Shown piece by piece: positions 14,464-44,030 of a stretch of DNA of 64,000 nucleotides (positions are counted from its first letter, which is position 1; every line of letters begins with the position of its first letter). A model generated the notes under the pieces. The model was not told where the DNA came from, ran no database searches, and saw only the letters and a list, made by a program, of their open reading frames with translations. The position numbers and the translations under genes are program-made. This DNA is from Abyssibius alkaniclasticus (GTDB taxonomy: Bacteria; Pseudomonadota; Alphaproteobacteria; Rhodobacterales; Rhodobacteraceae): positions 744,001-808,000 of the forward strand of contig NZ_CP095732.1 in the NCBI RefSeq assembly GCF_020447305.1, given 5' to 3'.

Positions 14464-14730
14464 ATGGCCAACTCGCCCCAATCCAAGAAACGCGCCCGGA
14501 CGGCCGAGCGCCGCACCGCGATCAACAAATCGCGCCGCTCGCGCATCAAGACCTTCATCCGCCGCGTTGAAGAGGCGATCAGCTCTGGCGATCAGTCCAA
14601 GGCGCAGGAAGCGTTGAAAAACGCACAGCCCGAAATTATGCGCGGCGTCACAAAAGGCGTTGTCCACCTGAACACCGCCAGCCGCAAGATTTCGCGCCTT
14701 GCTGGCCGCATAAACGCGATGTCTGCGTAA
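14464..14730 (+). CDS. rpsT: 30S ribosomal protein S20
   Basis: S20 is a small, highly basic primary-binding protein of 16S rRNA. The 88-residue product begins [17 protein letters not shown] and has the expected helical pattern with [19 protein letters not shown] and [19 protein letters not shown]. It has its own promoter (14391-14418) and a strong terminator, so it forms a single-gene unit. Its place just upstream of dnaA is common in alphaproteobacteria. Confidence 0.98.
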
Positions 14731-14752
14731 TATTACGCTTTAAGCTGTTGAA

Positions 14753-14785
14753 AACGCGTCCGAATTTCGGGCGCGTTATTTTTTT
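14753..14785 (+). terminator. Strong intrinsic terminator of rpsT
   Basis: AACGCGTCCG (14753-14762) and CGGGCGCGTT (14768-14777) form a 10-bp stem with one G-T wobble and loop AATTT, followed by A and a run of seven T residues (14779-14785). Confidence 0.9.
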
Positions 14786-15020
14786 GTCATGAATCTTCCA
14801 CAGTTGCCTACCTGTTCTATTGTCCGAATCTATGGGCTTGGGTATGGTGACTTACGCCTTGCGATTCCCTGGTGATCGACTGCTCTGGGCGCTGCCAAAT
14901 TTGAAATACCAACACCGCATGGAGGGCGCAGGCCAAGCATGTGATGGGAAGATTTTGCCTTGTCAGCCCAAGCAGACCCACCTTGCGGAACCGCTTTGGG
15001 GCATTTGTTTGGGGATGTTT
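14786..15020 (+). promoter_or_regulatory. Leader region of rhodanese-dnaA with GANTC sites
   Basis: This 235 bp non-coding stretch between the rpsT terminator and the rhodanese gene must hold the promoter that also serves dnaA, unless dnaA has one in the 62 bp before its own start. It carries three GANTC sites (14791, 14826, 14863) within 77 bp and a TCTTCCACA (14794-14802) that differs at two positions from a DnaA box. GANTC is the CcrM methylation target in alphaproteobacteria. No clear -35/-10 pair is evident. An in-frame extension of the rhodanese frame to 14820 exists but does not look like protein. Confidence 0.45.
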
Positions 15021-15520: not shown

Positions 15521-16867
15521 ATGAGTAACGAAATTTGGGGCAAGGTGCGCAATTCGCTGCAATCTCAGCTTGGCGCACAGGCCTATGGCAACTGGATCGA
15601 GCCGCTGACCTTTGAGCGGTTTGACGCCGGCATCGCCCATATCGCCGCCCCAACCCGCTTCATTGCCACCTGGGTGCAGCGGCATTATGGCGAAAAAATT
15701 CACGGGCTTTGGGCCGAACATGGCGTTGCGATCGACCGTGTCGTGCTGTCCAACACCACACAGCCCGCCGCCGCCAAACCGGCGGCCCCCGCCGTTCAGG
15801 CACCGTTCGAGACGGGCGAGGCCGAGCTGCCCTCGATGCCGCTGAACAACAATTTCACCTTTGATGCTTTCGTGGTCGGCAAACCCAACGAGCTGGCCCA
15901 TGCCGCCGCGCGCCGCGTGGCCGAAGGCGGCGATGTGGCCTTCAACCCGCTGTTTTTCTATGGCGGTGTCGGGCTTGGCAAAACCCATCTGATGCACGCC
16001 ATCGCCCATGACATTCGCGCCAAACGCCCCGGTGCGCGCGTGCTGTATGTATCGGCCGAACAGTTCATGTATCGCTTCGTGCAGGCGCTGCGCTTCAAGG
16101 ATATGCACGGCTTCAAGCAGCTCTTTCGTTCGGTCGATGTGCTGATGGTTGACGATGTGCAATTCATCGCCGGCAAGGAATCCACCCAGGAAGAATTCTT
16201 CCATACATTCAATGCTTTGGTTGAGAACCACAAGCAGGTTGTGCTGTCGGCCGACAAAGCCCCCAGCGATATTGACGGGCTGGAGGAGCGGATTCGTTCG
16301 CGCCTGCAATGCGGGTTGGCGGTTGATCTGCACCCGACCGACTACGAGCTGCGCCTCGGCATTCTGCAATCCAAGCTCGAAGGCCAGATGCAGCATTACC
16401 CCAATATGGTTGTGCAGGATGGTGTGCTGGAGTTTCTTGCCCAGCGCATTTCGCAAAACGTGCGCGTGCTTGAAGGCGCGCTGAACCGGCTTTTTGCGCA
16501 TGGTGGGCTTGTGGGGCGCGAAATTACCCTCGATCTGGCCACCGAATGCCTGTCGGACCTGCTGCGCGCCTCTGAACGCAAGGTGACGATTGATGAAATC
16601 ATCCGCAAGGTGGCCACGCATTACAATCTGCGCATGACCGACCTGCTTTCGGCCCGGCGCGCGCGTTCCGTGGCCCGCCCGCGCCAGATTGCCATGTATC
16701 TCAGCAAAACGCTCACCTCCAAAAGCCTGCCGGAAATTGGCCGCCGTATTGGCGGGCGCGATCATACAACGGTCATCCATGCCGTGAAGAAGATCGAAGA
16801 GCTGCAGATGAGCGACTTTCAAATCGCCGAAGATGTGGAACTGCTGCGCCGGATGCTGGAAGCCTAG
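15521..16867 (+). CDS. dnaA: Chromosomal replication initiator DnaA
   Basis: DnaA is the AAA+ ATPase that binds DnaA boxes and opens oriC. It has 448 residues. The N-terminal DnaB-interaction domain (residues 1-65) contains SQLGAQAYGNWIEPLTF. A Pro/Ala linker follows to about residue 105. Walker A GGVGLGKT is at 148-155, Walker B is in VLMVDDVQFI, and the DNA-binding domain IV ends with the signature GGRDHTTVIHAVKKIEEL. The ATG at 15521 fits the conserved N-terminus. It lies 27.7 kb from the proposed oriC and is followed by dnaN, recF and gyrB. A GANTC cluster in the upstream leader may link its expression to methylation state. Confidence 0.99.
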   Translation: MSNEIWGKVRNSLQSQLGAQAYGNWIEPLTFERFDAGIAHIAAPTRFIATWVQRHYGEKIHGLWAEHGVAIDRVVLSNTTQPAAAKPAAPAVQAPFETGEAELPSMPLNNNFTFDAFVVGKPNELAHAAARRVAEGGDVAFNPLFFYGGVGLGKTHLMHAIAHDIRAKRPGARVLYVSAEQFMYRFVQALRFKDMHGFKQLFRSVDVLMVDDVQFIAGKESTQEEFFHTFNALVENHKQVVLSADKAPSDIDGLEERIRSRLQCGLAVDLHPTDYELRLGILQSKLEGQMQHYPNMVVQDGVLEFLAQRISQNVRVLEGALNRLFAHGGLVGREITLDLATECLSDLLRASERKVTIDEIIRKVATHYNLRMTDLLSARRARSVARPRQIAMYLSKTLTSKSLPEIGRRIGGRDHTTVIHAVKKIEELQMSDFQIAEDVELLRRMLEA

Positions 16868-19911: not shown

Positions 19912-22332
<2,421 letters not shown>

Positions 22333-30250: not shown

Positions 30251-31318
30251 TTAATGTGAGCGGCTGTTCACCAGCCGCCCCATCAGCTGGGCGGTATAAT
30301 CCACAATCGGCACGATCCGGGCATAGTTAAGCCGGGTCGGACCGATCACGCCTACAGCGCCCACAATCTTTCGCTCGGCGTTCATATAGGGAGAAACCAC
30401 CAGAGCGGAACCCGAAAGTGAGAAAAGTTTGTTCTCCGAGCCAATAAAAATGCGCACACCGGCGCTTCCCTCGGTCAAAGACAGCAATTGCTCCAGATCG
30501 CGCTTTTGTTCGAGGTCATCAAAGAGCTGGCGAATGCGCTCAAGATCGGCGGACGAGGCGGAATCCTCCAGCAGATTCGCCCGCCCGCGCACCACAAGGC
30601 GGCTGCCCTTGCCCATATCATCGGACCAGACGGCAAGACCGGATTCGATGAGGTTCTGGCTGAGCGTATCAAGTTCGGCACGGTTTTTGGCAATTTCACG
30701 TGAAACAATACTGCGCGCTTCGGACAGGGTATGGCCCTCCAGCACGGCATTGAGAAAATTCGCCGCCTGGCGCATGGCCGAGGGGGTCATCCCCGGTGGC
30801 GGGGTCATCAGCCGGTTTTCGACCTGCCCGTCGGCGGTGACCAGCACCACTAGCGCGCGCTCTGCCGAAAGCGAGACGAATTCCAGATGCTTGATTGGCG
30901 CTTCCAGCTTTGGAGCGGTAACAAGGCTGGCACCGCGCGTCAGCCCCGACAGCATGGCGCCGGCCCGCTCGATCGCGCCGGTCAGGTCGGATTCATTGCC
31001 ATCGATCGAGCGGTCAAGCTCGGCGCGGTCGGGCAAGGGCACGGCATCAAATTCCATGATCCCGTCGACAAACAGGCGCAATCCAAGCTGTGTGGGAATG
31101 CGCCCCGCCGAGGTATGCGGCGCGTTCAGCAGGCCCAGAAGCTCCAGATCCTGCATGGTGTTGCGAATGGTCGCGGCAGACACGCCTTCGGACAGGCTGC
31201 GCGACAGGGTGCGCGAACCCACGGGTTCGCCCGAAGCAAGATAGCTTTCCACAATCAGCCGAAACACTTCGCGTGATCGGGATGTCAAATCACCAAGAGG
31301 GGATGCTTGCTGCGTCAT
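30251..31318 (-). CDS. hrcA: Heat-inducible transcription repressor HrcA
   Basis: HrcA binds CIRCE operators and represses groESL and related operons. Length is 355 residues. The N-terminal winged helix has SRSREVFRLIVESYLASGE, then PVGSRTLSR and SAATIRNTMQDLELLGLL. The following HTSAGRIPTQLGLRLFVD is the family hallmark. The C-terminal dimerisation/inserted domain is complete. No CIRCE inverted repeat (TTAGCACTC-N9-GAGTGCTAA) is visible around its own promoter, so autoregulation is not indicated. The gene carries a near-parS sequence at 30692-30707, read as VSREI in the protein. It diverges from rph. Confidence 0.97.
   Translation of the reverse strand: MTQQASPLGDLTSRSREVFRLIVESYLASGEPVGSRTLSRSLSEGVSAATIRNTMQDLELLGLLNAPHTSAGRIPTQLGLRLFVDGIMEFDAVPLPDRAELDRSIDGNESDLTGAIERAGAMLSGLTRGASLVTAPKLEAPIKHLEFVSLSAERALVVLVTADGQVENRLMTPPPGMTPSAMRQAANFLNAVLEGHTLSEARSIVSREIAKNRAELDTLSQNLIESGLAVWSDDMGKGSRLVVRGRANLLEDSASSADLERIRQLFDDLEQKRDLEQLLSLTEGSAGVRIFIGSENKLFSLSGSALVVSPYMNAERKIVGAVGVIGPTRLNYARIVPIVDYTAQLMGRLVNSRSH
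30692..30707. promoter_or_regulatory. Degenerate parS site inside hrcA
   Basis: The 16-mer matches the parS palindrome TGTTTCACGTGAAACA at 14 of 16 positions, with mismatches only in the first two bases on the plus strand. The core TTTCACGTGAAAC is intact. In hrcA it encodes VSREI, in the same reading phase as the VSRET of the perfect site in rsmG. It lies 12.6 kb from the proposed oriC. Confidence 0.6.
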
Positions 31319-34283: not shown

Positions 34284-34654
34284 ACAGCGTGCGCCACGGC
34301 ATGTGGCTGGCCATCGGGCTGGTCTTTACGGGGTTTGGGCTGGTGGGTGCTGTGCTGCCGATCATCCCGACGGTGCCGTTTCTGATTGTCGCCGCCTTTG
34401 CCTTCAGCCGTTCATCCAAACGCTTCCACAATTGGCTGGTGAACCACCGGATTTTCGGCCCGCCAATCCGGGACTGGCAGGAGAGCGGCGCGATCTCGCG
34501 GCGCACGAAATGGATTGCGACGCTCACGATGTCGGCGGGGATCGGCGTGAGTTTCCTGGCGCAACTATCGTGGATTATTATTATTATTCAAAGTGTTGCC
34601 ATTGGCGTCGCGTGCCTGTTCATCTGGACCCGCCCCGACACCAAGCCGCGCTAG
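34280..34654 (+). CDS. DUF454 (YbaN-like) inner-membrane protein
   Basis: This 124-residue protein has two N-terminal hydrophobic segments (GLVFTGFGLVGAVLPIIPTV and FLIVAAFAFSRSS) and a C-terminal pair, with the family-specific RFHNWLVNHRIFGPPIRDW in between. DUF454/YbaN proteins are small inner-membrane proteins of unknown function. It overlaps the hemW stop (ATGA) and its own stop overlaps the convergent parB by 4 bp. The codons at 34574-34588 are five consecutive ATT triplets, an unusual choice here where ATC is the common isoleucine codon. Confidence 0.87.
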   Translation: MNSVRHGMWLAIGLVFTGFGLVGAVLPIIPTVPFLIVAAFAFSRSSKRFHNWLVNHRIFGPPIRDWQESGAISRRTKWIATLTMSAGIGVSFLAQLSWIIIIIQSVAIGVACLFIWTRPDTKPR

Positions 34655-35544
34655 CGCGAAAGTAGCTGGCACAGACCGTCAAGCTCTTCGAGGGTTTTGT
34701 AGCTGATCGTGATCGCGCCCGATTCACCCCCCGGCCGGTGGCTGATATCGACCTTCAGGCGCAGATGCGCGGTCAGATCCGCCTCGATGGCACGTGTATC
34801 GCTGTCTTTTCCGGGCTTTAGCACGCGTTTGGCAACGGGGGCCTGCCCCTGACGGGCCAAAGCCTCGGCCTGGCGGACATTCAAACCCTTCTGGATGATG
34901 ATTTTCGCAAGCGAGTCCGGGTTATCGGCGGTAACGAGCGTGCGCGCATGGCCCGCCGAAAGCCGCCCGGCGCGCAGATGTTCAAGCACGGAATCAGGCA
35001 GGTTCAGCAAGCGCAGCAGGTTGGCGATATGGCTGCGGGACTTGCCCAGCGCAATGGCCAGCTGTTCCTGTGTATGGCCAAAACTGTCCATCAACTGCCG
35101 ATAGCCGGCCGCCTCTTCCACGGGGTTCAGATCGGCGCGCTGGATGTTTTCGATAATCGCGACTTCCAGCACCTCGGCATCGGTGAAATCGCGGATGATG
35201 ACCGGCAGGCTGTGCAATTGTGCGCGCTGCGCGGCGCGCCAGCGGCGTTCGCCCGCCACGATTTGGTAGCGCCCCGATACATGCGGGTCGGGCCGCACGA
35301 TCAGCGGCTGCAACACACCTTTTTCGCGGATCGAGGCGACAAGCTCGTCAAGATCTTCGGGTTTGAAGCTGCGGCGCGGCTGGTCGGGATTGGGCGCGAT
35401 CTTCTCAATCGGCAGGGTGGTATCGGCAGCGCGCGCGCGCCCCTCGGCACGGGTGGCCGACGGGGTGTCGGCATTCAGATCGACATCGGCCAGCAGGGTC
35501 GACAATCCACGACCCAGGTTTTTGCGGGGGCTAGGTTTGCTCAT
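34651..35544 (-). CDS. parB: Chromosome partitioning protein ParB
   Basis: ParB binds parS sites near the origin and, as a CTP-dependent clamp, spreads to form the segregation complex that ParA moves. The ATG at 35544 gives 297 residues starting MSKPSPRKNLGRGLSTLLAD. The N-terminal box IAPNPDQPRRSF and the CTP-binding segment GERRWRAAQRAQL are present, followed by the helix-turn-helix LGKSRSHIANLLRLL that reads parS. The C-terminal dimerisation domain is intact. It overlaps parA by 14 bp or more and ends a run of genes from hemE. Two perfect targets lie 1.4 and 3.3 kb upstream. Confidence 0.98.
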   Translation of the reverse strand: MSKPSPRKNLGRGLSTLLADVDLNADTPSATRAEGRARAADTTLPIEKIAPNPDQPRRSFKPEDLDELVASIREKGVLQPLIVRPDPHVSGRYQIVAGERRWRAAQRAQLHSLPVIIRDFTDAEVLEVAIIENIQRADLNPVEEAAGYRQLMDSFGHTQEQLAIALGKSRSHIANLLRLLNLPDSVLEHLRAGRLSAGHARTLVTADNPDSLAKIIIQKGLNVRQAEALARQGQAPVAKRVLKPGKDSDTRAIEADLTAHLRLKVDISHRPGGESGAITISYKTLEELDGLCQLLSR

Positions 35545-36367
35545 GGAGTTCTTCCTCTTGCGTAATCGGGTCATTCAGGCGGCGCAGCAGTTCACCGGCC
35601 AGTTTCTGATAGGCGACGGCGCCGGAACTCCGATGATCATAGATCAGCGCGGGCACGGAATGCGAGGGCGCTTCGCTGAGCCGGATATTGCGCGGAATCG
35701 TGGTTTCATAAACCAGATCACCAAGGTTTTTACGCGCATCCGCCTCGACCTGCAGTGACAGGTTGTTGCGTTTGTCATACATGGTCAGCACGACACCCTG
35801 AATCGATAATCCGGGGTTAAGTGTTTGACGCACCTCACGAATTGTCAGCATGAGCTGCGAAAGCCCTTCCAGCGCAAAGAACTCGCATTGCAGCGGCACC
35901 AGCACGGAATTGGCGGTGACCATCGCGTTGACGGTGAGCAGGTTCAGGGATGGCGGGCAGTCGATAAGAATATAGTCATAATCGCAAGCCAATGCCTCGG
36001 GCGTGTTCAGCGCACGACGCATCCGCAATACGCGGTTGCGGTCTTCCACAAGGTCAACATCGGCCGATGACAGGTCGACCGTTGAGGGCGCAACGAACAG
36101 ACCGGGCACGACGGTTTCAACCGAAACATCGGCCAAACTCGCCTCACCCAAAAGCAGATCATAGGTGGTCAAATCGCGCTGTGCCTGATTGACGCCGAGC
36201 CCGGTCGAGGCATTGCCCTGTGAATCGAGATCAAGAATAAGCACACGCCGCCCGACGGCGGCCAAGGCCGTGCCCAAATTGATAGCGGTCGTGGTTTTAC
36301 CCACACCGCCCTTTTGGTTGGCAACGGCAATAATCTGGCGCTGGCGGTTCGAGTTACGCTGAGACAC
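35531..36367 (-). CDS. parA: Chromosome partitioning ATPase ParA
   Basis: ParA is the deviant-Walker ATPase that binds DNA non-specifically and pulls ParB-parS complexes. The Walker A is ANQKGGVGKTTT, with the signature lysine K19. YILIDCPPSLNLLTVNAM is the Walker B region. The start is ambiguous: GTG at 36367 gives 278 residues (VSQRNSNRQRQIIAVANQKG), TTG at 36373 adds two; neither has a strong ribosome site. Translation is probably coupled to rsmG, whose stop at 36354 lies inside this frame. parB follows with an overlap. Confidence 0.97.
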   Translation of the reverse strand: MSQRNSNRQRQIIAVANQKGGVGKTTTAINLGTALAAVGRRVLILDLDSQGNASTGLGVNQAQRDLTTYDLLLGEASLADVSVETVVPGLFVAPSTVDLSSADVDLVEDRNRVLRMRRALNTPEALACDYDYILIDCPPSLNLLTVNAMVTANSVLVPLQCEFFALEGLSQLMLTIREVRQTLNPGLSIQGVVLTMYDKRNNLSLQVEADARKNLGDLVYETTIPRNIRLSEAPSHSVPALIYDHRSSGAVAYQKLAGELLRRLNDPITQEEELHEQT

Positions 36368-36983
36368 GGGCAAATTCTCGGATTTTCAGGATTGTTGCAT
36401 TCGGGTCGCTCTGGCTTGGCACCAGGTCACAGACAATATGCCAAGCCTTGCGGGCTGCGGTCAATTCCGATTCGGCCTGAATGCCCTTGGGAAACAGACA
36501 AATACCGCCTTTGGCAAGATGTCGCTCGGCATAGGCAAGCAATTGGTCAAGCGCAGCCAGCGCCCGGGCGGAAATGACCTGTGCCTGAAGCGGCGGACAC
36601 TGTTCGATTCGCTTGGAAACCACATTCACCGAAAGCCCCATTTTCTGTGCGGTGGTCAGCAAGAAGGCGCATTTGCGCTGGTCGCTCTCGACCAGTGTCA
36701 TCTGGCGCGTGGGGTCGAGCGCGGCAATGACAAGGCCGGGAAACCCCGCCCCGGCCCCAAAATCGGCCCATTGGCCCTGCGCGGTGCCGGCCAATGCCAA
36801 AAGCTGCGCGGAATCGGCAAAATGCCGTTGCCAGATTTCGGCAACGCTGGCACGGCTGATCAGGTTGATCCGTTCGGTCCAGCGGACCAGCTCGGCATGA
36901 TAGATATCCAGACGCGCGCATGTTTCACGTGAAACATAAAAGCGCGACAGAAACTGAGAACGCCCGACATTATCATTAGACAT
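36354..36983 (-). CDS. rsmG: 16S rRNA (guanine-527-N7)-methyltransferase
   Basis: RsmG (GidB) methylates G527 of 16S rRNA; its loss gives low-level streptomycin resistance. Length is 209 residues, with the SAM-binding glycine motif in WADFGAGAGFPGLVIAAL and VESDQRKCAFL downstream. RISRASVAEIWQRHF-like sequence (LISRASVAEIWQRHFADSA) lies before it. Residues 16-23 (YVSRETCA) are encoded by a perfect parS palindrome at 36921-36936. The ATG at 36983 overlaps the mnmG stop by one base, and the stop overlaps the parA start region. Confidence 0.97.
   Translation of the reverse strand: MSNDNVGRSQFLSRFYVSRETCARLDIYHAELVRWTERINLISRASVAEIWQRHFADSAQLLALAGTAQGQWADFGAGAGFPGLVIAALDPTRQMTLVESDQRKCAFLLTTAQKMGLSVNVVSKRIEQCPPLQAQVISARALAALDQLLAYAERHLAKGGICLFPKGIQAESELTAARKAWHIVCDLVPSQSDPNATILKIREFARVSA
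36921..36936. promoter_or_regulatory. Perfect parS site inside rsmG
   Basis: TGTTTCACGTGAAACA, an exact 16-bp palindrome, is the parS consensus bound by ParB. It lies in the 5' end of rsmG and is translated as part of YVSRET. It lies 6.3 kb from the proposed oriC and 1.4 kb from parB. Confidence 0.93.
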
Positions 36984-38854
36984 CAGGCACTTGCCCGCAT
37001 GGGCGTTGATTTGAGCCGCGCCAGAATCAGGGTAAGTGCGGCCGGTGTCATCCCGTCGATACGCTGGGCATGTTCCAGAGATTCCGGCCTTGCCTTGCCA
37101 AGTTTCGCCTGCAATTCAGCCGAAAGCCCGGCAATGCTGGCATAATCAAACCCGTCGGGAATGCGCCGGGCAAGGTCGCGCCGCATGGCCGCAACATCCA
37201 GCGCCTGCCGCTCGATATAGCTGGCGTAAAGAGAATCATAGGAGAGCTGCGTCAGGATCTGTGGCGCGACCGCAGCCAGTTCTGGCCACAGGGCGAAGAG
37301 CTGCGCCCGGCTTGTATCGGGTCGCGGCAGCAGGTCGAGCGCCGAACGACGCTGGCCATCCTGGTTGAGGTTCAGCCCGACCGTAGCGGCCGCCTTCGGT
37401 GTGGTGGTGAGCGATTCGCACAGAACCCGCGCCGCGGACAGTTCGCTCATCTTCCGCTCAAAGGCCTTGCGCCGCTTGGCCGATACACAGCCAAGCGCAA
37501 TCCCCAGTGGCGTGAGCCGTTGATCGGCATTATCGGCGCGCAGCGACAGGCGAAACTCGGCGCGCGAGGTGAACATCCGATAAGGCTCCGCCACGCCGCG
37601 TGTGACCAGATCGTCAATCATCACGCCGATATATCCGCTTGCCCGGTCGATCATCGCCGGTGCAAGTTCGCGCGCATATGCGGCCGCGTTCAGCCCGGCA
37701 ACCAGCCCCTGCGCACCGGCCTCCTCATAACCCGTTGTACCGTTGATCTGCCCGGCAAGAAACAGCCCGCCAATCGCGCGCAATTCAAGCGTGGAGCTTA
37801 GCGCGCGCGGGTCGAGATAGTCGTATTCAATGGCATAGCCCGGCTGCAGGATCGTGACATTTTCCAGCCCCTTGATCGAGCGCACATAGGCGTGTTGCAC
37901 ATCTTCGGGCAGCGAGGTTGAAATGCCGTTCGGATAGATCGTCGGATCGTCCAACCCCTCGGGTTCCAGAAAAATCTGGTGCGAAGACTTGTCGGAAAAC
38001 CGCACAACCTTGTCTTCGATCGACGGGCAATAGCGCGGACCAACACCATCGATATGGCCGCCATACATTGCGGATTTGGACAGGTTATTCTGAATAATAT
38101 CATGTGTTTGCGGGTTGGTATGTGTGATGCCGCAACTTATCTGTCGCGCTGTCGGCGCGCTGGACAGGAATGAAAACAGCACCGGGTCATCATCGGCCGG
38201 CTGACTTTCTAGCACCGACCAGTCAATCGTGCGCCCGTCAAGCCGCGGCGGCGTGCCGGTTTTGAGCCGCCCCATCGGCAGGCCCAGCCCGCGCAGGCGC
38301 GTGGCCAGCGGAATGGCAGCGCCATCACCCATCCGTCCACCCGTATGGCGTTTGTCGCCGATATGGATGACGCCACCCAGAAACGTGCCGGTTGTCAACA
38401 CGACCGCGCGGGCATGAATTTGAGCGCCATCACCCAGAATCACGCCGGATATGGCGTTGTTTTCCACGCGCAGATCCGAAACTTCGGCCTCGATCACATC
38501 CAGCCCGTCGAGGCCACGAAACGCGTCCTGAATCGCCAGACGATAAAGCTTGCGGTCGGCCTGGGTGCGCGGGCCCTGCACCGCCGGGCCTTTCTTGCGG
38601 TTCAACAGACGAAACTGGATGCCGGATTTATCGGCCGCGCGGCCCATCAACCCGTCTAGCGCATCAATCTCGCGCACCAGATGGCCCTTGCCCAACCCAC
38701 CAATTGCCGGATTGCACGACATTTCGCCAAGCCGGTCGAAGCGATGGGTGACCAGGGCCGTGCGCGCGCCACGGCGCCAGGCGGCATGTGCGGCTTCGGC
38801 GCCAGCATGGCCACCGCCCACAATGATGACATCATAATGTTTCACGTGAAACAC
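36983..38854 (-). CDS. mnmG: tRNA uridine-34 modification enzyme MnmG
   Basis: MnmG (GidA) is the FAD enzyme that, with MnmE, installs the 5-carboxymethylaminomethyl group on wobble uridine-34. Length is 623 residues. The FAD-binding site follows the start: [33 protein letters not shown] and [13 protein letters not shown]-like sequence ([16 protein letters not shown]) are family hallmarks. Translation starts at a GTG (38854) with a weak upstream site. The first codons, read FHVKH, are a perfect parS palindrome. It begins 3 bp after the mnmE stop, so its translation is probably coupled, and rsmG follows with a one-base overlap. Confidence 0.98.
38838..38853. promoter_or_regulatory. Perfect parS site at the mnmG start
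   Basis: TGTTTCACGTGAAACA occurs exactly, beginning at the second base of the mnmG start codon, so codons 1-6 (M-F-H-V-K-H) are made by the site. It is 4.4 kb from the proposed oriC, the nearest of the three parS-like sites. Confidence 0.93.
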
Positions 38855-42037: not shown

Positions 42038-43075
42038 CTAACCTTTGATAATATTCAATAATTCTTCAACATGTCGCGGGTCTGCCTCGGGTGTTATGCC
42101 GTGGCCGAGGTTGAAAATCCAGCGCCCGTTGCCCAGAATTTCCTGCAATCGCTCCACCTCGTGACGCAATTGCGCACCACCTGTAACCAGCAACATCGGG
42201 TCAAGATTCCCCTGCACGGCAACATCGGGTTGCAGCACATCGCGCGCCCAGCGCGCGGGCACCGAACTGTCGAGCGCCAGGGCGTCAAAATCGCCGGTTC
42301 TGGCGAATTGCTCATAGCCGCCACCCACGCCGCGCGGAAACCCGATCACCTTCACATGCGGGAAGCGGGATTTCAGCGCACGGGCAATTTTTTGTGCCGG
42401 TTTCAGCGCAAATTCTTCAAATGTGCTGCCCGAAAGCGCACCGGCCCAACTGTCAAACAGCTTTACAACCTCGGCGCCAGCTTCGATTTGCCTGGCCAGA
42501 TATTCGATTGTTGCCAAGGTCAGCAGATCAATCAGATCGGCGAACAGTGCGCGATCATCATACATCATCCGCCGCGCCGGGCCCTGGTCGGGCGTGCCAC
42601 GCCCGGCAATCATATAAGTGGCAACGGTCCAGGGCGCGCCGGCAAAGCCGATCAGCGCCGTCTCTTTCGGCAGTTCCGCCGTCAGCCTGCGCACGGTTTC
42701 ATAGATCGGCGCCAATGTATCATGAATTGCCTCAACCGGATTGAGGCGCTCAAGGTCATCGCGGGTCACAATTGGCACAAGGCGCGGGCCTTCGCCGGTT
42801 TCAAACCACAGCTTGGCACCCAAAGCTTGCGGCAAGAGCAGGATATCGGCAAATAGAATCGCCGCATCAAAGCCAAAACGGCGAATTGGCTGGAGCGTGA
42901 CCTCGACCGCATGGTCGGGCGAATAACACAGTTCCAGAAATCCGCCCGCTGTCGCGCGGGTTGCGCGATATTCCGGCAGATACCGCCCTGCCTGGCGCAT
43001 CAGCCAAACCGGCGGCATGGCCAGAACCTCGCCACCCAACACACGGAGCAGGCTTTTTTCGATCTTTACTGCCAT
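42038..43075 (-). CDS. hemE: Uroporphyrinogen decarboxylase
   Basis: HemE removes four carboxyl groups from uroporphyrinogen III to give coproporphyrinogen III. Length is 345 residues. [17 protein letters not shown] is the signature with the key arginines, and [16 protein letters not shown] and [10 protein letters not shown] are also characteristic. The active-site aspartate is in [12 protein letters not shown]. It is the first gene of the leftward block and borders the proposed oriC, as in Caulobacter and Rickettsia, where the origin lies beside hemE (from published work on those genomes). Confidence 0.98.
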
Positions 43076-43430
43076 GCCTTCTTCTTTCTTAAGATATAGA
43101 AAAATAGAGGTTGTTGTAGAACCCTATGAGTTATGGGGATTACCGTAAAACAAAGGTTTTGCACAGAGTTTTCCACATGAAATCTGGTGCTAAATCCGTT
43201 GAATCGACAAAGTTTTTGCTGGTTTTCAACCAAAACCATAAACAGTGGACGAAACGCTCCCCTGTGGCTGGCTTGGGGCCGGGCTGTGCGCGTGACGGGT
43301 ATGAAACGCCACAAATCCGGTGCTGCAATTTTACCACCAGACTTCTCCCTGGGCTTACCCCCGGTTTCATCCACAGGCGGGATTGGCGCATCATGCTGGC
43401 GAATTTTCGCACCTGTGCTAAGAGCAGTCC
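43076..43430. other. oriC: Putative chromosome replication origin (oriC)
   Basis: A 355 bp non-coding gap separates divergent hemE and maf. The first ~65 bp are AT-rich (for example AAGATATAGAAAAATAG), the rest is mixed. DnaA-box-like nonamers are TTTTCCACA (43169-43177, one mismatch to TTATCCACA), TCATCCACA (43367-43375, one mismatch) and TTTTGCACA (43157-43165, two mismatches). A dyad TGGTTTT (43220-43226) with AAAACCA (43232-43238) and one GANTC site (43201-43205) are present. The gene context matches known alphaproteobacterial origins, and parS sites lie within 4-13 kb. No full CtrA site was seen. Functional proof is lacking. Confidence 0.7.
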
Positions 43431-44030
43431 ATGACAATGCCATTCATTCTTGCCTCATCATCGGAAACCCGCGCCAATATGCTGCGCGCGGCCGGTCTTT
43501 CGGTTGAAATTGCCCCCGCGCGGGTGGATGAAGCCGCCATCAAGGCCGCGCTTCTGGCCGAAGGCGCGCCCGCGCGCGATATCGCCGATGCCATGGCCGA
43601 AGCAAAGGCGCGGCGCATCGGCCAAAAGCGCCCCGATGCCATTGTGCTGGGTGCCGACCAGGTTCTGGTTTGCAATGATGTGCTGTTTGACAAGCCCGAT
43701 ACAATAGAGATGGCGCGCGACCAGCTTGCACAGTTGCGCGGGCAAAGGCATGTCTTGCTTTCCGCAGCAGTCATCTTTCATGAAGGGCGGCCGATTTGGC
43801 GGCATATCGGGCGGGCCGAACTTGTGATGCGTGATTTCAGCGATTCCTTTCTGGAAGACTATCTTGGCCGTGAAGGTAGCAACTTGTTTGCAACAGTTGG
43901 CGCATATCGGCTTGAATATCGCGGGGCACAGCTTTTCACTTCGGTCGCGGGCGACTATTTTTCGATTTTGGGGCTACCCCTGCTCGAATTGTTAGATTTT
44001 TTGCGCGCCAGGAAGATTTGCCAACAATGA
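43431..44030 (+). CDS. maf: Maf-like nucleotide pyrophosphatase
   Basis: Maf proteins hydrolyse nucleoside triphosphates (dTTP/UTP or modified nucleotides) to monophosphates and affect septation. Length is 199 residues. The opening ILASSSETRANMLRAAGL is the family motif. The catalytic stretch contains AIVLGADQVLVCNDVLFDKP with the conserved aspartate, and the C-terminal DYFSILGLPLLELL is typical. It is the first gene to the right of the proposed oriC and overlaps aroE by 4 bp, as in Caulobacter. Confidence 0.93.
   Translation: MTMPFILASSSETRANMLRAAGLSVEIAPARVDEAAIKAALLAEGAPARDIADAMAEAKARRIGQKRPDAIVLGADQVLVCNDVLFDKPDTIEMARDQLAQLRGQRHVLLSAAVIFHEGRPIWRHIGRAELVMRDFSDSFLEDYLGREGSNLFATVGAYRLEYRGAQLFTSVAGDYFSILGLPLLELLDFLRARKICQQ

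Follow-up and report, generated by a model that had tools for sequence, protein, structure and literature searches.

Where replication of the Abyssibius alkaniclasticus chromosome begins is the question raised by a short interval between hemE and maf, which a first-pass annotation had taken for the probable origin. The window, that is the whole 64-kb stretch of DNA analysed, covers positions 744001–808000 of a contig of 3.205 Mb, and the interval occupies 43076–43430 within it (355 bp, GC 0.48; given, like the dyad, the parS sites and the unstable stretch described below, without strand). On its left lies hemE (42038–43075, minus strand), which has its start codon end at 43075 and the nearest named relatives of which, at no more than 73% identity, are from Rhodobacteraceae. 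On its right lies maf (43431–44030, plus strand), starting at 43431, such that the two genes diverge from a gap which is, as had been claimed, non-coding. The smaller features ascribed to the gap are likewise in place: a 7-bp dyad, TGGTTTT/AAAACCA, can be read directly from the sequence at 43220–43238, and a single GANTC occurs at 43201. GANTC is uninformative, there being 108 such sites across 61 family gaps and 90.4 in 20 mononucleotide shuffles.

In a bacterial oriC, DnaA boxes are expected to lie closer together than in the remainder of the genome and to have easily unwound, AT-rich DNA beside them; a switch in GC skew is expected at the site, and boxes at the orthologous position in relatives; this background, and the consensus patterns for oriC, parS, dif and KOPS, are general knowledge. 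In the gap, the two one-mismatch boxes reported earlier are present at 43169–43177 (TTTTCCACA) and 43367–43375 (TCATCCACA), as is the weak two-mismatch box at 43157–43165 (TTTTGCACA), all three on the plus strand. To these is added a box absent from the earlier list, TAATCCCCA at 43134–43142 on the minus strand, which has two mismatches and faces the AT-rich end. Only nine boxes with at most one mismatch occur in the 64-kb window, and the hemE–maf gap is the sole 400-bp stretch that holds two of them. When a box matrix built from 60 other family gaps was run on the window and on 632 kb of sampled genome, the gap ranked first in the window with a score of 49.7, followed by 34.0 at 20049 and 30.6 at 14564, and it also exceeded the maximum found in the sampled genome, 38.9. 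In other words, the scan for DnaA boxes that the first-pass annotation had named as a check finds the cluster denser here than anywhere else in the window and the 632-kb sample. Perfect copies of TTATCCACA are not found inside the gap, all eight of the contig being elsewhere. Two of these, at window positions 20061 (minus) and 51255 (plus), flank the gap and may be sites of DnaA titration or regulation.

Whether the cluster belongs to the place or to this one genome can be judged from relatives. Here hemE proved to be a poor anchor: 77 of 80 named hemE loci (L046–L048 and L050–L123), some of which sit on short contigs, carry none of the 16 other block genes tested, such that hemE seems to have left the origin block in much of the family. 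Just three (L044, L045 and L049) keep maf, rho and the remaining block alongside hemE. Since hemE failed, rho was used instead; it was matched in 59 of 61 family genomes, that of A. alkaniclasticus included, and all 58 others were retrieved. In every one of these 58, a leftward gene on the rho side (hemJ in 44, rho itself in 10, hemE in four) diverges from a rightward maf (55) or aroE (three), and the order parA–rsmG–mnmG–mnmE–rho ... aroE–coaE–dnaQ is found in most of 20 long loci. One locus, L183, is an exception to the compact gap, with 2224 bp separating hemJ and aroE and no maf match there.

The orthologous gaps are rich in boxes. With L183 omitted, for which no gap was defined, 61 of 62 gaps were counted; their ends were taken from tblastn matches, prolonged to the start of the query, and not from annotated starts. 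Together these gaps contain 156 boxes of no more than one mismatch, as against 5.9 ± 2.2 in 30 dinucleotide shuffles, and only two of the 61 (L180 and L195) have none. TCCACAG is present in 46 of the 61 and ATCCACAG in 35. Five boxes each are present in L044 and L045, two close relatives that can be aligned with the window at the 43134 box (GGATTACCG) and at about 43157–43174. Among 20 loci, counting the window's, no other 400 bp is as rich in boxes as the gap in 15; in the other five the gap shares first place, one tie being at zero (L180). The orthologous position is thus conserved together with its boxes, and the absence of boxes from relatives, which the first-pass annotation had named as grounds for giving up the origin, was not seen. 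As a whole, the gap is not conserved as DNA: a search of 394 family genomes with its full sequence returned its own genome and nine weak matches of 22–33 bp, one of which, when compared, sits away from the rho place of its genome.

This behaviour bears on the possibility that the boxes reflect DnaA acting as a transcription factor for hemE and maf, with no origin function. The gene layout does make the gap a divergent promoter region, and such regulation would account for boxes in it; the boxes persist, however, while the flanks vary between hemE, hemJ and rho on one side and ppsR, maf and aroE on the other, and low duplex stability and a triplet motif (see below) adjoin a box. Regulation alone is therefore exceedingly improbable, and the reading of the gap as an origin is retained in what follows.

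The first-pass annotation had also equated the hemE–maf arrangement with that of the Caulobacter and Rickettsia origins. The hemE side of this comparison stands and the maf side does not, the published flank being hemE–COG1806, that is ppsR (PMC1914354). What the window shares with Caulobacter crescentus Cori and the Rickettsia origin, as described there, is a divergent gap of ca 350–400 bp beside hemE, DnaA boxes, an AT-rich stretch and maf-side genes beyond (PMC1914354); what differs is that maf, and not COG1806, stands opposite hemE. A search for ppsR (PF03618) gave zero matches in the A. alkaniclasticus genome, while a control search recovers the Caulobacter ppsR, and maf is accordingly regarded as the direct neighbour of the gap. 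In the family, a long ORF before maf, taken as ppsR, occurs in seven loci (five of the 58, L164, L165, L168, L169 and L170, plus L045 and L049), and was trimmed off before the gaps were counted, by eye in L164 and L170. At the level of the class, for which 78 of 115 genomes were matched and the best 29 loci examined, the window's own locus excluded, hemE and ppsR stand opposite each other at the gap in 26 loci, one other having maf without ppsR and two having neither. Read most simply, the window locus has probably kept the old hemE side and lost ppsR; the hemE–maf flank is a local variant of the hemE–ppsR flank already known.

Full CtrA and IHF patterns, as generally known, have no match in the window gap, where weaker sites are possible; one each is found in seven and five of the 61 gaps, respectively, totals that are above those in shuffles (7 against 1.1 for CtrA, 5 against 1.2 for IHF), while CtrA half-sites are not clearly enriched (12 against 22.0). 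In this regard the window gap differs from Cori, for which five CtrA sites and a single IHF site have been described (PMC1914354).

The surroundings of the gap resemble those of an origin in a further respect. The only two perfect parS sites of the contig (TGTTTCACGTGAAACA) lie at 36921–36936 and 38838–38853, both within 6.2 kb of the gap (at 6.1 and 4.2 kb), which bears out the nearby parS sites of the first-pass annotation; a parS-like site with two mismatches occurs at 30692. The parB and parA genes (34651–36373, minus strand) are members of the conserved block. An Ori-Finder survey of Rhodobacteraceae picked oriC on three grounds, a minimum of skew, a local minimum of GC and proximity to parAB (PMC6699656); the gap fits the parAB and low-GC criteria.

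Strand skew is less helpful. Over the contiguous 560–976 kb of the contig, cumulative GC skew has its minimum near 804 kb, ca 17 kb from the gap. The basin around this minimum is broad, at about 756–852 kb, and includes dnaA (760 kb) as well as the gap (787 kb). A coarse skew from 40 samples has its maximum near 2.5 Mb and places the switch, in its 15 best-listed fits, at 580–640 kb, away from the gap. Within the 64-kb window GC skew is too jagged to serve as a locator, and a test with skewed octamers, trained outside the region, failed to localise the origin, its minimum being at 877 kb with a 5–95% range of 573–951 kb. The skew check named in the first-pass annotation is consequently divided, the local minimum speaking for the gap and the coarse fits and octamers not pointing to it; as the basin covers both candidates, the skew agrees with the gap loosely and is unable to decide between it and dnaA. 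Of all octamers in the samples, GGGCAGGG has the strongest leading-strand bias (91 occurrences against 18); it resembles a polar motif of chromosome segregation.

It is conceivable in this light that the origin lies beside the initiator gene dnaA (15521–16867, plus strand, ca 26 kb from the gap), somewhere within about 14.4–17.0 kb of the window, and that the gap is a divergent promoter with chance boxes. Besides sharing window and skew basin with the gap, dnaA has, immediately upstream, the box cluster that ranks third in the window (14564–14913, with boxes at 14745 and 14794). The score of this cluster is, however, 30.6 against the 49.7 of the gap, boxes with one mismatch or none are absent within 3 kb of dnaA, and the enrichment of boxes in the 61 orthologous gaps, with the unwinding motif common to them, favours the gap. 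An origin at dnaA is thus highly improbable, if slightly less so than a purely regulatory role for the boxes.

At the other end of the chromosome, a dif-like site with one mismatch occurs at 2.5397 Mb (L002 1501–1522; G000:C1:2539734–2539755), close to the sampled skew maximum; it rests on one pattern, and at three mismatches control patterns matched as often, such that it is perhaps a candidate mark of the terminus. The arms from the gap to this site are unequal, at 1.75 and 1.45 Mb.

The AT-rich left end noted in the first-pass annotation turns out to be the least stable DNA in the window. With a nearest-neighbour energy table taken from general knowledge, the 50 bp at 43084–43133 sum to −56.9, compared with a window mean of −78.2 (SD 4.89), which makes this stretch, directly beside the boxes, the candidate unwinding element. 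Inside it, on the minus strand, lies a triplet element, CTA CAA CAA CCT CTA (43105–43119), which follows the box at 43134–43142 after 14 bp. It is not peculiar to the window. In many family gaps, read on the strand running from the boxes to the left gene, a box (often TAATCCACAG) is followed by a spacer, CCCTAC, triplets, CTTTTCTTTT and an AT-rich run. A motif matrix was obtained by expectation-maximisation on 60 other gaps, the window being left out of training, from a period-3 seed that was composed after the gaps, the window's included, had been viewed. Its best match in the 64 kb is at 43097–43121 on the minus strand, with 17.3 bits, the next independent match having 10.3, and no match in the 632 kb of sampled genome reaches 17.3 bits. 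In three family gaps (L165, L188 and L219) the best match is found away from the left gene; two others, L166 and L220, score below 7. Class-level gaps show similar triplets after tandem boxes (L236 and L245), and at least 17 bits is reached in only two of 29 (L229 and L244).

The placing of this element recalls the basal unwinding system of Bacillus subtilis and others, in which DnaA takes hold of one strand at DnaA-trios that come after a box and a spacer (PMC8287927). The order of box, 14-bp spacer, triplets and AT-rich DNA is the same, and the first unit is CTA, or 3'-GAT-5' on the opposite strand, which holds for the window and for 29 of the 45 gaps that score at least 17. Under the published search rule a site needs three or more 3'-NAN-5' units within 16 bp, spacers having their peak at 10–13 and a limit of 16 (PMC8287927). 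In the family the later units are for the most part CAA or CAT, and those of the window read CAA CAA CCT; unlike published trios, they are without the middle adenine of 3'-NAN-5'. Leftward, towards the AT-rich end, the rule finds no match in the window even when two box mismatches are allowed, while rightward it finds two. In the family it matches leftward in 22 and rightward in 12 of 61 gaps with one box mismatch, and in 39 and 23 with two. The rightward matches, in window and family, mark the rule as permissive. A canonical (TAG)n reading of the word GATGATGAT, present in 19 of 61 gaps, was dropped because its letters run the opposite way. In other words, the triplet element is placed like an unwinding module and falls outside the published trio class, since place and order fit and the middle base does not.

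Two readings of the element deserve weighing, both of which leave the origin where it is. According to one, Rhodobacteraceae origins, and perhaps more loosely those of other alphaproteobacteria, would open by way of a deviant DnaA-trio, C-anchored, with CTA and then CAA/CAT (3'-GAT then 3'-GTT/GTA-5') and no middle adenine; deviant trios of this kind, lacking the middle adenine, have been suspected by the authors of the trio survey (PMC8287927). According to the other, the triplets are a mere low-complexity pyrimidine tract of an AT-rich region and not a repeat gripped by DnaA. A tract is suggested by the run of the element into CTTTTCTTTT, by the variable middle base and the direction in which the published rule finds its matches, by the period-3 seed of the motif search and by the 16 of 61 gaps that score below 17. 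Against it stands the register of the cytosines: counted from the CTA over those 45 of 61 gaps, the window's among them, that have a motif score of at least 17, the first base of units 1 to 5 is C in 36, 39, 23, 44 and 42, respectively. Moreover, a count independent of any seed, of C at strict 3-bp spacing in G-free runs, finds 20 of 61 gaps on this strand compared with one on the other and 1.4 in shuffles, and none on the motif strand at periods of 4–6. The rightward rule matches slightly lower the odds of the deviant trio, which is a tentative proposal somewhat short of an even chance; the pyrimidine tract is a real possibility, slightly further below even. What is new here is the family motif itself, a box, a spacer and cytosine-anchored triplets leading into AT-rich DNA, the function of which we infer. 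Among the literature titles listed for DnaA-trio together with Rhodobacter or Caulobacter, none reports such a motif in the group, a statement about titles which is not a claim of its absence from print.

Taken with the rest, the hemE–maf gap is very probably oriC, together with the steps proposed for it, and an origin of the known alphaproteobacterial kind would be placed here with confidence by comparison. The origin reading of the first-pass annotation is supported by what is directly observed, namely the clustering of the boxes, the conservation of place and motif across the orthologous gaps of the family, the low duplex stability and the closeness of parS. From general knowledge of oriC, DnaA would occupy the boxes at 43134–43177 and 43367, and may then spread leftward from the minus-strand box across the triplet element at 43105–43119, upon which the AT-rich stretch at the hemE end (ca 43084–43133) would open. 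Helicases would load at the opened stretch and two forks depart to a terminus that may lie close to the dif-like site at 2.54 Mb. That DnaA binds, that the duplex unwinds and helicases load, and that the steps follow in this order, is predicted by analogy.

For A. alkaniclasticus the outcome is that the origin of its chromosome can be placed. For the family, it is that the origin gap keeps its place whether or not hemE and ppsR are beside it, from which it follows that rules based on flanking genes can mislead. The motif offers a testable, family-wide candidate for unwinding in a group where the origins of eight surveyed strains were left unassigned by software (PMC6699656). Of all that is described here, the cytosine-anchored triplet element is the part most deserving of specialist attention; were it a true deviant trio, it would be a case of those suspected in the trio survey (PMC8287927), and the code by which DnaA recognises single strands would differ between lineages.
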